Of a stretch of DNA of 64,000 nucleotides, positions 31,893 through 38,374 are shown in pieces. How positions within the stretch are numbered: position 1 is the first letter of the stretch; the number at the start of each line of letters is the position of its first letter. The notes below the pieces were generated by a model. That model was not told where the DNA came from. It did no database searches and was given only the letters and a program-made list of their open reading frames with translations. Origin of the DNA: an uncultured Chlorobiaceae bacterium (GTDB lineage: Bacteria; Bacteroidota; Chlorobiia; Chlorobiales; Chlorobiaceae); contig CAISRC010000070.1 in NCBI GenBank assembly GCA_903887845.1, positions 1 through 64,000 on the forward strand, written 5' to 3'. The translations under genes were made by a program, and so were the position numbers.

Positions 31893-32762
31893 TCAAAGCT
31901 GCTCCAGCGCCATCACCGCCGCGCTGATGGCTTTAACCACCGCTGGCGTCGAGGTGTTCAATTGTTGGGGATTACTGATCGACAGTGATGGCGGTATGCT
32001 GAGCGGCTTCAGGGGAGAGGATGTTTCTGCACCGATCAGCGACATCATGGCCTTGTCAGCTCTTGTACCAGTTACCTGCACCGCTGTTTGTCGGCAGATC
32101 GGATTCTCCATCAGCTTGTTCATCGTGAAATATTCAGCCTCTTCACGGTTATTTACCCGATGAAAAGAGAACTTTTCCAGAGTTCCATGGTGCGCTATAG
32201 TCAAAAGTACAGAGCTGTTCTCAAGTTCAAGGAGAACCTGCGGCTCCTCCGTAAATTTCGACAGATAGACAAGAGGGAGGTGCGCTGTACCCGCGAAAAG
32301 TATCTGGTGCTCATCAGACAAGTATGTTTCTACCCTGCTGCATGGTTCAGCAGGGTAGAAAAGCAGAAGCCTGTTATTATCTGTTGCATGACCATTGGCA
32401 TACCTGACAATGTCGTAACCATACTCTTCGGGTTTGTTCAAAAAGTACTCCGCCTCAATGCGGCAATATGCTCGTGACTCCTCCGGGGTTGCATCTTCGG
32501 GAAAGCATGCAGGGAGGGGCAGCAAGCTCTCCGTGCCGACACAGAGCGCAAGCTCCTCATCCTTCCATGCGCCGCAGAAGCTTTTCAGCTTGCCGAGAAG
32601 ACGCTTCTCATGACCTGATGCAAGGCTCTGGAGGCCAAGAGGCAGCGTTTTACAGCCAGAAAGGGTGTACCCGTTACTGCCGGATGTTTTAAGCCGGACA
32701 ACAGCCGATTCTGTATGGTCGATGATGCAGGCGATAATGCTCTTGCTCGCTCGGTGATCCAT
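31893..32762 (-). CDS. Uncharacterised 289-aa protein, partner of a ComEA-like gene
   Basis: Not recognised with confidence. The protein starts MDHRASKSIIACIIDHTESAVVRLKTSG and alternates beta strands and helices (LALCVGTESLLPLPACFP, YCRIEAEYFLNKPEEYGYDIV, LFAGTAHLPLVYLSK), without signal peptide or membrane helix. The pattern of an early IDHTESAVV turn and a later strand pair is loosely like actin-fold PilM proteins of pilus assembly, but this is weak. Its ATG shares one base with the stop of the upstream helix-hairpin-helix gene, so the two are translationally coupled. That supports a role linked to DNA uptake or pili rather than proving it. Confidence 0.6.
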   Translation of the reverse strand: MDHRASKSIIACIIDHTESAVVRLKTSGSNGYTLSGCKTLPLGLQSLASGHEKRLLGKLKSFCGAWKDEELALCVGTESLLPLPACFPEDATPEESRAYCRIEAEYFLNKPEEYGYDIVRYANGHATDNNRLLLFYPAEPCSRVETYLSDEHQILFAGTAHLPLVYLSKFTEEPQVLLELENSSVLLTIAHHGTLEKFSFHRVNNREEAEYFTMNKLMENPICRQTAVQVTGTRADKAMMSLIGAETSSPLKPLSIPPSLSISNPQQLNTSTPAVVKAISAAVMALEQL

Positions 32763-34651: not shown

Positions 34652-36025
34652 ATGCCGAACCACGATATCTTCGGGCTTCCAGCAGAAACGCCTCTGGTTC
34701 TTGTCAAACAGATGACCCGCCATATCAAGCCAAAGGTCATGGCGAAACTTGAGTACATGAATCCCGCCTGGTCGCACTATTACCGGGTGGCGTGTGCCAT
34801 TGTCAAAGATGCTGAAGAGCGTCATCTGATTCATCCGGGCATGACTCTTGTGGACTGGAGCTTCGGCAATAGCGGTATCGCTCTGGCAATGGCCAGTGTG
34901 AGTCGAGGCTACAAGCTGCTTCTGGCTGTCCCCGATAAAATATCGCGGGAAAAACAGGATATGCTGCGGGCCATTGGTGCCGAACTGGTTATCACCCCTT
35001 CGGATGCTTTGCCCGGAGAGCAACGCAGTTGCATGAATGTGGCCGAAAGTCTGGTGAAGAGCATTCCTAACGCATTTTTTACCGGAATGTATGAGAATCC
35101 TCTCAGCCTTCAGGTTCACAGCGATGCAACAGGTAGTGAAATTTTTCGCCAGACGGATGGGCGGGTTACTCATGTGTTTGTGCCTATGGGTTCCGGCGCA
35201 ATGGTTTTCGGGATCGGTCGCTTTCTGAAAGCACAGAATTCCGCGATCCGTATTGTCGGCGTTGAGTCGCAGGGTTCAATATATGCAGGCCTTTTCAAAG
35301 ATGGAAAACCGGGAGCTCCGGCATTTTCAGAACTTGAAGAAATAGGTTCTCAACAGGCTTCCGTTTTTTGGGATCCGTCGGTTATCGATGAAGTGATGCA
35401 GGTAAGCGATTATGAGGCATTCAACTGCGGCAGGGAACTCTTGCGGATGGAAGCTGTTTTTGCCGGTGGAGCATCGGGTGCGGTGATGGCCGCAGCCCTT
35501 CAGGCTTCTGCGGGGTATGGGGAGAATGACTGTGTTGTTGTGGTGATGAATGATTTCGGGGGTTACTATCTCAGCAAGATGTACCGGGATGACTGGATGC
35601 GGAAACGGGGCTTTTACCGGAAAGCGAAATCGGCACTTGAGCAGATTACCGCAGAGGATATTCTCCAGTTGAAAGCGCGTCGGGATCTGATTTTTGCCTG
35701 GCCGGAACATACGCTTGCGGAGGTGTTTGAAATGATGAAGCAGAACGATGTTTCCCAGCTTCCGATTGTCTCCTATAACGCTCCGATCGGGAGTATCAGC
35801 GAAAACAAGATTCTGTCCATACTTATTGAAAACGATGATGCGATGAATGCAAAGGTTGTCGGATTCATGGAGAAACCATTTCCTGTCTGTACTCTGGATG
35901 CCACAATTTCCGAATTATCTGCGAAATTGCAGCAAAACGCATCCGGCGTACTGATAAATATGTCGGATGGAAGACTTCAACTAATTACAAAATCTGATCT
36001 TATCGATGCCTTGACCCATAAATAA
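34652..36025 (+). CDS. Cystathionine beta-synthase/cysteine synthase-like protein without PLP lysine, with C-terminal CBS-domain pair
   Basis: A 457-residue protein collinear with cystathionine beta-synthase, including a C-terminal CBS-domain pair (about residues 340-457). Where the family has GGSVKDR with the Schiff-base lysine, this protein has AWSHYYR, placing Tyr43 at the lysine position. The substrate loop PTSGNTG is WSFGNSG (about 69-75) and the phosphate-binding GTGGTITG loop is changed to GSGAMVFG. The remaining fold is well preserved (KDAEERHLIHPGMTLVD, AFFTGMYENPLSLQ, VFAGGASGAVMAAAL, RDDWMRKRGF). It is therefore probably a non-PLP pseudoenzyme, perhaps a nucleotide sensor through its CBS pair. 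It is a single gene; no cysteine or methionine genes adjoin it. Confidence 0.85.
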   Translation: MPNHDIFGLPAETPLVLVKQMTRHIKPKVMAKLEYMNPAWSHYYRVACAIVKDAEERHLIHPGMTLVDWSFGNSGIALAMASVSRGYKLLLAVPDKISREKQDMLRAIGAELVITPSDALPGEQRSCMNVAESLVKSIPNAFFTGMYENPLSLQVHSDATGSEIFRQTDGRVTHVFVPMGSGAMVFGIGRFLKAQNSAIRIVGVESQGSIYAGLFKDGKPGAPAFSELEEIGSQQASVFWDPSVIDEVMQVSDYEAFNCGRELLRMEAVFAGGASGAVMAAALQASAGYGENDCVVVVMNDFGGYYLSKMYRDDWMRKRGFYRKAKSALEQITAEDILQLKARRDLIFAWPEHTLAEVFEMMKQNDVSQLPIVSYNAPIGSISENKILSILIENDDAMNAKVVGFMEKPFPVCTLDATISELSAKLQQNASGVLINMSDGRLQLITKSDLIDALTHK

Positions 36026-36193: not shown

Positions 36194-36754
36194 ATGAAGG
36201 TAGAGTCCAAAAAAAGGCAGTTTATTTTGGAGGGTAAGATCAAGGCTTGCTTCTGTGAAGGATGCGGTCAGATTACTGAGAAAGTGTTTGTCGGCGAATG
36301 GATGCCGAGTGATAAGCCGAAATATGACGATTTTTTAACCTCATCTCCGGTTAAAAAGCAAAAAGAGGGTAAGAATGGTGCGGTCAATGTTCAGCCAGCG
36401 GCCGAAAATCAGTACTGGATTCGTTGTTCCGAGTGTCAACAGGTTTACCTTCTCAAAGAGTGGCAGATACAGATTGACCGGGAAGTCAGTCCTGGTGAAC
36501 TGAATGCTGAAGAGTGTCAGGTCTATTCTCCGCATGGTATTTATGCCAAAGGCGATGCACTCTATCATCAGGCTCTCGGCGAAGTTGGAGTAGTCAGGGA
36601 AAAACAGGCGACTGGCAGTGGCGCCTTTATCATTATTGTAGAATTCTGTAAAAGCGGCAGAAAACAGCTTCTCGAAAACGTGCAGATTAATGCTGCAAAT
36701 GGAAAACATTCGGAAAGCGTTACTGATATTATTAAACTTAAACTAAGACGTTAA
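36194..36754 (+). CDS. Zinc-ribbon protein of unknown function upstream of rpsU
   Basis: A 186-residue protein I do not recognise. Two cysteine pairs, CEGCGQ (about residues 21-24) and CSECQQ (about 78-81), look like a zinc ribbon split by a charged insert. The C-terminal part (SPHGIYAKGDALYHQALGEVGVV, then IIIVEFCKSGRKQLLENV) resembles small beta-barrel domains of the CarD/Tudor-like kind that bind RNA polymerase or nucleic acid. It lies 40 bp upstream of rpsU in the same direction. A translation or transcription role is suggested by the ribbon, the barrel and the neighbour, but is not established. Confidence 0.65.
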   Translation: MKVESKKRQFILEGKIKACFCEGCGQITEKVFVGEWMPSDKPKYDDFLTSSPVKKQKEGKNGAVNVQPAAENQYWIRCSECQQVYLLKEWQIQIDREVSPGELNAEECQVYSPHGIYAKGDALYHQALGEVGVVREKQATGSGAFIIIVEFCKSGRKQLLENVQINAANGKHSESVTDIIKLKLRR

Positions 36755-37072: not shown

Positions 37073-38374
37073 ATGAGAGTTTTCAAAGGTGAAATTACAG
37101 CATTGCCGCCCGACAAGTCGATCTCCCATCGGGCCGCCCTCATTGGCGCCTTGTCGGAAGGCACAACAGAGATAACAAACTTTTCCAGAGGATTTGACAA
37201 TCAGTCAACCCTCGGTGTCCTGAAAGATGCAGGGATAACGCTTCGGCAGGAAGAGGCAGACGGTGCTTATGGTCGCTGCATCAAGCGGGTAATTATTGAG
37301 TCACAAGGATTATGGAGCTTTCAGCCTCCATCGGCTCCGTTGATGTGCAACAATTCAGGCAGCACCATGCGCATGTTTGCCGGAATTCTTGCTGCTCAGC
37401 CCTTTTCGAGCGAGTTGATCGGCGACAGTTCCCTGATGAAGCGCCCCATGAAACGGGTTGCCGATCCGTTGCGCTTTATGGGTGCCACAATTGAACTTTC
37501 CGCTTCAGGAACCGCACCAATTTTGATCAAGGGAACAAAAGAGCTCAAGGCTATTGAGTATCGGCTGCCAGTTCCTTCAGCGCAGGTGAAGTCACTCGTG
37601 GCGTTTGCCGCCCTTCATGCTGAAGGTGAAACGAGAATAATCGAACCCTTACTCTCGCGTGACCATACCGAAGTGATGCTCGGGCTTGAGAGCATCGAAT
37701 GCAACGGCGAAAGGGTCATTGTGGTGCCCGGCAGAAAAGCTGTTGCCGCAAAGCCCTTCTTTATTCCAGCCGATCCCTCTGCGGCATGTTTTATTGTCGC
37801 GCTTGGTCTGCTTGCCCGAGGTTCAGAAATCATCATCCGGGATGTCTGCCTCAACCCTACCAGAGCGGCATTTCTCGGTATTCTTTCAGAAGCCGGGGCA
37901 GGGTTATCCATAGAAAATCAGCGAGTGATTGGAGGCGAAACCATCGGCGACATTCTTGTGCAGAACAAAGTGGGGCTTGAGCCTCTCGCCATCAGCGATC
38001 CGCAGCTCGTTGCCTTTATCATTGATGAAATACCGATGCTGGCCGTGCTTTCAGCCTTTGCCTCAGGCCGGTTTGAACTGCATAACGCCGCAGAGCTGAG
38101 AACGAAAGAGAGCGACAGGATTGACGCGCTTGTCGTTAACCTTCAGCGGCTTGGTTTTGAATGCGAGCAATATCCTGATGGTTTTGTGGTCAAAGGGCGC
38201 AAGATGACCCCATCAACCACCGTCGTGGTGGACAGTTTTGACGACCACAGGATTGCCATGAGCTTTGCCATTGCCAGCAAAGCAACAGGATGCGCGATTG
38301 ACATTACCGATATCGATGTGGTTGGTGTCTCGTTCCCTAACTTTTTTGAACTGCTTGATAGTCTGGAAGTGTGA
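37073..38374 (+). CDS. aroA: 3-phosphoshikimate 1-carboxyvinyltransferase (EPSP synthase)
   Basis: A 433-residue enzyme of the shikimate pathway. Motifs in order: [135 protein letters not shown] and [14 protein letters not shown]. All active-site signatures are intact. The last 38 bp overlap the convergent hydrolase gene. Confidence 0.96.

Follow-up and report, generated by a model that had tools for sequence, protein, structure and literature searches.

The ligands of CBS-domain pairs (Bateman modules) are numerous, and certain pairs may do no more than dimerise. In human cystathionine beta-synthase (CBS), residues F443, Q445, T535 and D538 take part in the binding of SAM (PMC9232105). The PLP lysine of Rv1077, the CBS of Mycobacterium tuberculosis, is Lys44; when it is mutated to Ala (K44A), the peak at 412 nm disappears (PMC9232105). 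Other relatives of the same fold type have dropped catalysis. TSB-like, a plant pseudoenzyme of tryptophan synthase beta, has kept allosteric control of its partner (PMC12727527). CYSL-1, a CysK homologue of C. elegans, is reported to be a cysteine-synthase-type protein that has a signalling role and no biosynthetic activity (PMC5562914, citing Ma et al. 2012).

The window analysed here, a stretch of 64 kb from a Chlorobium-type genome of the Chlorobiaceae, contains a gene for a CBS-like protein of 457 aa without the PLP lysine (P0001; 34652-36025, +), with an ATG start and zero internal stops. A fold-type II domain is followed by a pair of CBS domains. The PLP-fold domain (PALP), predicted to be dead, covers residues 10-310 (34679-35581, +) according to Pfam PF00291, AlphaFold and Foldseek, with the Pfam match itself at residues 10-299 (E 2.7e-57). 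CBS domain 1 (residues 339-396; 35666-35839, +) carries a VSQLP motif with Gln369 and is the single CBS domain scored by Pfam (PF00571, residues 342-392, 8.9e-14). CBS domain 2 (residues 397-455; 35840-36016, +), which carries Thr446 and Asp449 in a TKSD motif, was missed by Pfam and is seen in the full-length alignment to Rv1077 and in its conservation. The best NCBIfam match is TIGR01137 (cystathionine beta-synthase; residues 4-452), whose score of 326 bits lies below the cut-off of 510; this is a weak criterion, because four lysine-retaining relatives, at 468-507, also score below it. The best PDB relatives are the SAM-regulated Rv1077 and CapA1 of Capnocytophaga, followed by animal CBS; CapA1, going by its name, is presumably of the cysteate synthase type. 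Foldseek with the PLP-fold domain also leads to CBS enzymes, the overall fold being kept, and the linker motif D-x-W-M is common to this protein and the M. tuberculosis and human enzymes. The AlphaFold model, made from a shallow alignment, is mostly good in the PLP domain (pLDDT 71-97 in most 10-residue blocks, near 60 in two). No Rfam match was found within the window, and RNA regulation was rejected.

A sequence-only reading of this gene had proposed that the protein aligns with CBS from end to end and that its Schiff-base lysine has become Tyr43, and alignments to Rv1077 and human CBS bear out both points. The lysine motif S-x-K-D-R corresponds to S41-H-Y43-Y-R45 (34772-34786, +), Lys44 of Rv1077 falls on Tyr43, and the Tyr43 codon is at 34778-34780; in the family Tyr43 is encoded by TAT or TAC, two base changes away from Lys. 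The former phosphate loop, GTGGT in relatives, is G180-S-G-A-M184 (35189-35203, +), altered as that reading had said. Its claim for the substrate loop held in part: W69-S-F-G-N-S-G stands in place of PTSGNTG, and the full motif DWSFGNSG (residues 68-75; 34853-34876, +) differs from the E[WGACS]T[AS]GNTG of most lysine-retaining relatives, but the Trp is no part of the loss, since sister families already have EWTAGNTG. Ala274 (35471-35473, +; GGASG against GGSSG) stands where CBS has a Ser in contact with PLP N1, Ser349 in the human enzyme.

These changes extend over the family, which was sampled as 85 distinct full-length sequences from two genera only, Chlorobium and Chlorobaculum (Prosthecochloris was apparently left out). 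Position 43 is Tyr in 83 of the 85, Asp in one, Ser in one and Lys in none. Most have xSGAM and GGASG, GTGGT is found in 0/85, and the Asn that contacts PLP O3' (Asn73) is kept in 57/85. By contrast, all 50 CBS proteins sampled in other Bacteroidota and in the sister families of Chlorobiales have Lys at the equivalent of position 43 (a first set of 30, drawn from sister families f3 and f4 and other Bacteroidota, and 20 added later), and the GTGGT and GGSSG motifs are intact in the sister families. Sister orthologues with the lysine, which the sequence-only reading had named as evidence against itself, therefore exist at the level of families only; with Lys kept in the sister families and absent in Chlorobiaceae, the loss is dated to the family stem and the claim is not refuted. 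Judged by these residues, loss of catalysis is nearly certain, and the label "cystathionine beta-synthase enzyme" (EC 4.2.1.22) would fail on the features that define it: the Schiff-base lysine, the GTGGT phosphate loop and the N1-contacting Ser. Descent of the protein from a CBS, with the regulatory half retained, has good support. Because the cofactor residues are lost, the protein is predicted neither to bind PLP nor to make cystathionine. A replacement lysine in the pocket was sought and rejected, as the lysines conserved in Chlorobiaceae and absent in relatives (326, 425 and 457) sit in the linker, the CBS module and the C-terminus.

New residues, mostly fixed and in several cases bulky, now occupy the pocket (Tyr43, Met146, Met184, Tyr305 and Ala274). 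Seventeen sites are near-invariant within Chlorobiaceae and within the lysine-retaining group yet differ between the two; 43, 68, 74, 181, 183, 274 and 305, which surround the former cofactor site, are among them. One position of the substrate loop is now variable, mostly Phe, Tyr or Cys. The lysine-retaining Chlorobiales orthologues (L103-L112) have EWTAGNTG at this loop versus EGTSGNTG in most Bacteroidota CBS; these two differences, the Trp and the Ser-to-Ala change, came before the loss of the lysine. A rebuilt pocket could catalyze a new, PLP-free reaction, as might be suggested by the several fixed new residues and by the pocket motifs, which within the PLP domain still change least in Chlorobiaceae (2.7 vs 6.3 changes per site by parsimony). 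We consider this improbable: the side chains that have entered the pocket are for the most part hydrophobic or small (Tyr, Met, Ala, Leu), the pocket has gained no new conserved lysine, and the most constrained part of the protein is the CBS module rather than the pocket domain. It is more improbable still that PLP or a PLP-like cofactor is bound without the lysine, the protein serving as its sensor or store. The kept overall fold speaks for such a role, but the phosphate-loop Thr and the N1 Ser are lost besides the Lys, and even Asn73 is kept in only part of the family.

The Chlorobiaceae gene is under purifying selection, with a median pairwise dN/dS of 0.080 overall (276 pairs; estimates from pairwise counts), 0.098 in the PLP domain and 0.043 in the CBS module. 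A value this low, about 0.08, indicates that the gene is not decaying, in agreement with the sequence-only reading, which had argued for selection after the lysine loss and for an intact frame and CBS pair. We give almost no credence to a decaying pseudogene or a sequencing or assembly error. The long stem of the family and a PLP domain that evolves faster might point that way, but decay is ruled out by dN/dS and by frames intact across the family, chance or assembly error is ruled out by 85 family members of which none has Lys, and the prevalence of Tyr43 and the high conservation of the CBS module speak against both.

Constraint on the two domains is reversed between Chlorobiaceae and their relatives. 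With one tree per group and a separate rate per domain (iqtree), the relative rates of PLP domain and CBS module are 1.30:0.33 in Chlorobiaceae, 0.76:1.50 in sister families and 0.61:1.92 in other Bacteroidota; the PLP domain outpaces the CBS module about 4-fold in Chlorobiaceae and is 2-3 times slower than it in the lysine-retaining relatives. Parsimony gives PLP/CBS ratios of 2.81 (95% 2.09-3.96), 0.60 (0.47-0.75) and 0.42 (0.36-0.49) for the same three groups. The CBS module, CBS domain 1 included, is the most conserved part of the Chlorobiaceae protein. Contrary to the earlier statement, divergence is not confined to the active site. Mean identity to other Bacteroidota CBS is 71% in sister families and 43% in Chlorobiaceae for the active-site motifs, falls from 52% to 38% for the PLP domain outside these motifs, and is unchanged at 33-34% for the CBS module, so that divergence spans the whole PLP domain. 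The change is domain-wide, and once the lysine had been lost the regulatory module became the most protected part.

An orthologue at 67-98% identity is present in nearly all Chlorobiaceae genomes, and those without the gene or with fragments are mainly draft assemblies. The lysine-retaining orthologues of the sister families (L103-L112) are 44-47% identical to the Chlorobiaceae protein. In Chlorobiaceae and at most sister loci, the gene adjoins one for a 186-aa protein with two CxxC motifs (Cys4 protein; 36194-36754, +), and aroA, encoding EPSP synthase (37073-38374, +), is a conserved neighbour. The order CBS-like gene, Cys4 gene, aroA is common to Chlorobiaceae and most lysine-retaining sister-family genes: at most readable f3 and f4 loci the lysine-retaining gene is followed by the Cys4 gene and, in most of those, by aroA too. 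The Chlorobiaceae gene is therefore the positional orthologue of the lysine-retaining sister genes. In the full-length tree, the Chlorobiaceae proteins form one clade (support 96) that is sister to the lysine-retaining Chlorobiales proteins (support 100 for the pair), on a stem of 0.78 substitutions per site compared with 0.10 for the sister group. Shared gene order and a monophyletic clade on a long stem indicate that the enzyme was inactivated in place and once, on the Chlorobiaceae stem.

The Cys4 protein, which has no Pfam or NCBIfam match, is kept across Chlorobiales, beside aroA at most loci, and its residues of about 65-165 show weak conservation across other Bacteroidota. In genome G086 (family f2), aroA directly neighbours the Cys4 gene, and that stretch (L167) yielded no CBS-like gene, which is a separate loss. 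The otherwise conserved neighbourhood also contains a fast-diverging 289-aa protein (31893-32762, -), without a Pfam match and with 31-35% identity to its Chlorobaculum copies. At three other Bacteroidota loci, the lysine-retaining form lies directly beside a gene of the cystathionine gamma-synthase/lyase type, and at sister-family locus L110 such a gene lies about 650 bases away; because of these neighbours, the ancestor was plausibly a transsulfuration enzyme. A correlation with cystathionine gamma-synthase/lyase across genomes does not discriminate, since PF01053 is found in all 98 genomes of the class. The Chlorobium-type genome G043 has, in addition to the gene without the lysine, a second and distant CBS with Lys (L113:4481-7017), directly followed by a gene of the cystathionine gamma-synthase/lyase type; this second copy was perhaps acquired laterally.

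The residues of the CBS pair that would contact an adenosyl ligand are largely retained. The counterparts of human F443 and Q445 are Val367 and Gln369 in the alignment with the human enzyme, and those of T535 and D538 are Thr446 and Asp449, from the alignment with Rv1077 and the TxxD motif. Gln369 and Asp449 are found in 85/85 Chlorobiaceae proteins and Thr446 in 80/85, the other five having Asn, so that the ribose- and adenine-site residues of a Bateman-module adenosyl sensor are kept. With these residues retained and the PLP body dead, sensing of SAM or an adenine nucleotide, which the sequence-only reading had raised as a possibility, is the likeliest working. On balance it is probable that the protein is a family-wide pseudoenzyme, the Bateman module of which binds an adenosyl ligand while the PLP-fold body relays the state to a partner. 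A working PLP-dependent CBS was inherited vertically and in place, and lost its Schiff-base lysine, phosphate-loop threonines and N1 serine on the Chlorobiaceae stem. The module may still bind its ligand at Gln369, Thr446 and Asp449, most likely SAM and possibly AMP or ATP, and the dimeric PLP-fold body may pass on the ligand state by binding another protein, perhaps an enzyme of sulfur metabolism. Several observations count against sensing: the conserved neighbours (the Cys4 protein and aroA) give no hint of sulfur metabolism, some members have Asn for Thr446, the F443 counterpart is Val, the ligands of CBS pairs are varied, and it is precisely the CBS module that AlphaFold models with low confidence.

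The pseudoenzyme might instead act mainly by binding and steering another enzyme through its remodelled PLP-fold body, with the CBS pair as an oligomerisation clamp without ligand; CysK, an enzyme of Cys or Met metabolism or the neighbouring Cys4 protein would be candidate partners. We regard this as rather unlikely. In its favour, there are fold-type II precedents in TSB-like, which activates TSA (PMC12727527), and CYSL-1, which binds EGL-9 (PMC5562914); the M. tuberculosis CBS tetramerises via its Bateman module (PMC9232105), and the PLP domain has fixed new residues. Against it, Thr446 and Asp449 of the ribose site could be dispensed with if the pair were a mere clamp, the PLP domain evolves faster than the CBS module, and peptide binding of the CYSL-1 kind would use the substrate loop, which is now variable at one position.

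No earlier description of a CBS without the lysine in Chlorobiaceae was found in the literature searched on green sulfur bacteria, Chlorobaculum tepidum and CBS pseudoenzymes. Pseudoenzymes are already known, and the evolutionary signature of this case is unusually clear. Automatic annotation will probably label the gene cystathionine beta-synthase, TIGR01137 being its best NCBIfam match, albeit one below the cut-off, and the label would wrongly credit Chlorobiaceae with a transsulfuration step predicted to be impossible for this protein. The family boundary offers a clean natural experiment on allostery, since a single gene at a single locus is an enzyme on one side and a dead enzyme across from it, and the shift of constraint from the catalytic domain to the regulatory one can be measured. 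More tentatively, and as a possibility we would not yet call probable, a whole family may have turned its CBS-domain cystathionine beta-synthase, in place and with no duplication, into a regulator that stands alone and is gated by SAM or an adenylate; the main function would then lie in what was the regulatory module, with the one-time enzyme as scaffold.

Compared with its nearest relatives, the lysine-retaining CBS of the sister families (L103-L112), the protein shares its position and the Trp of EWTAGNTG, whereas theirs have all cofactor residues intact and a fast-evolving CBS module. With Rv1077 and human CBS it shares the full-length domain order, the fold, the D-x-W-M linker and the adenosyl-site residues; it differs in lacking the PLP lysine, the GTGGT loop and the N1 Ser, in having Met146 for the substrate-site Gln, and in its reversed domain constraint. 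CYSL-1 is not known to have a CBS pair. It reportedly keeps its bisulfide site and binds a C-terminal Ile tail (PMC5562914). Like TSB-like, the protein is a fold-type II PLP enzyme that would have lost catalysis by consistent substitutions and been retained to control a partner. TSB-like, however, arose by duplication, with E190 and D386 as the key reported changes (PMC12727527), while in Chlorobiaceae conversion affected the original gene, which has lost the lysine together with most contacts to the cofactor and whose product also carries a CBS pair. TSB-like and CYSL-1 are both fold-type II precedents for dropped catalysis with kept control, which differ from the Chlorobiaceae protein in their origin and in what was lost.
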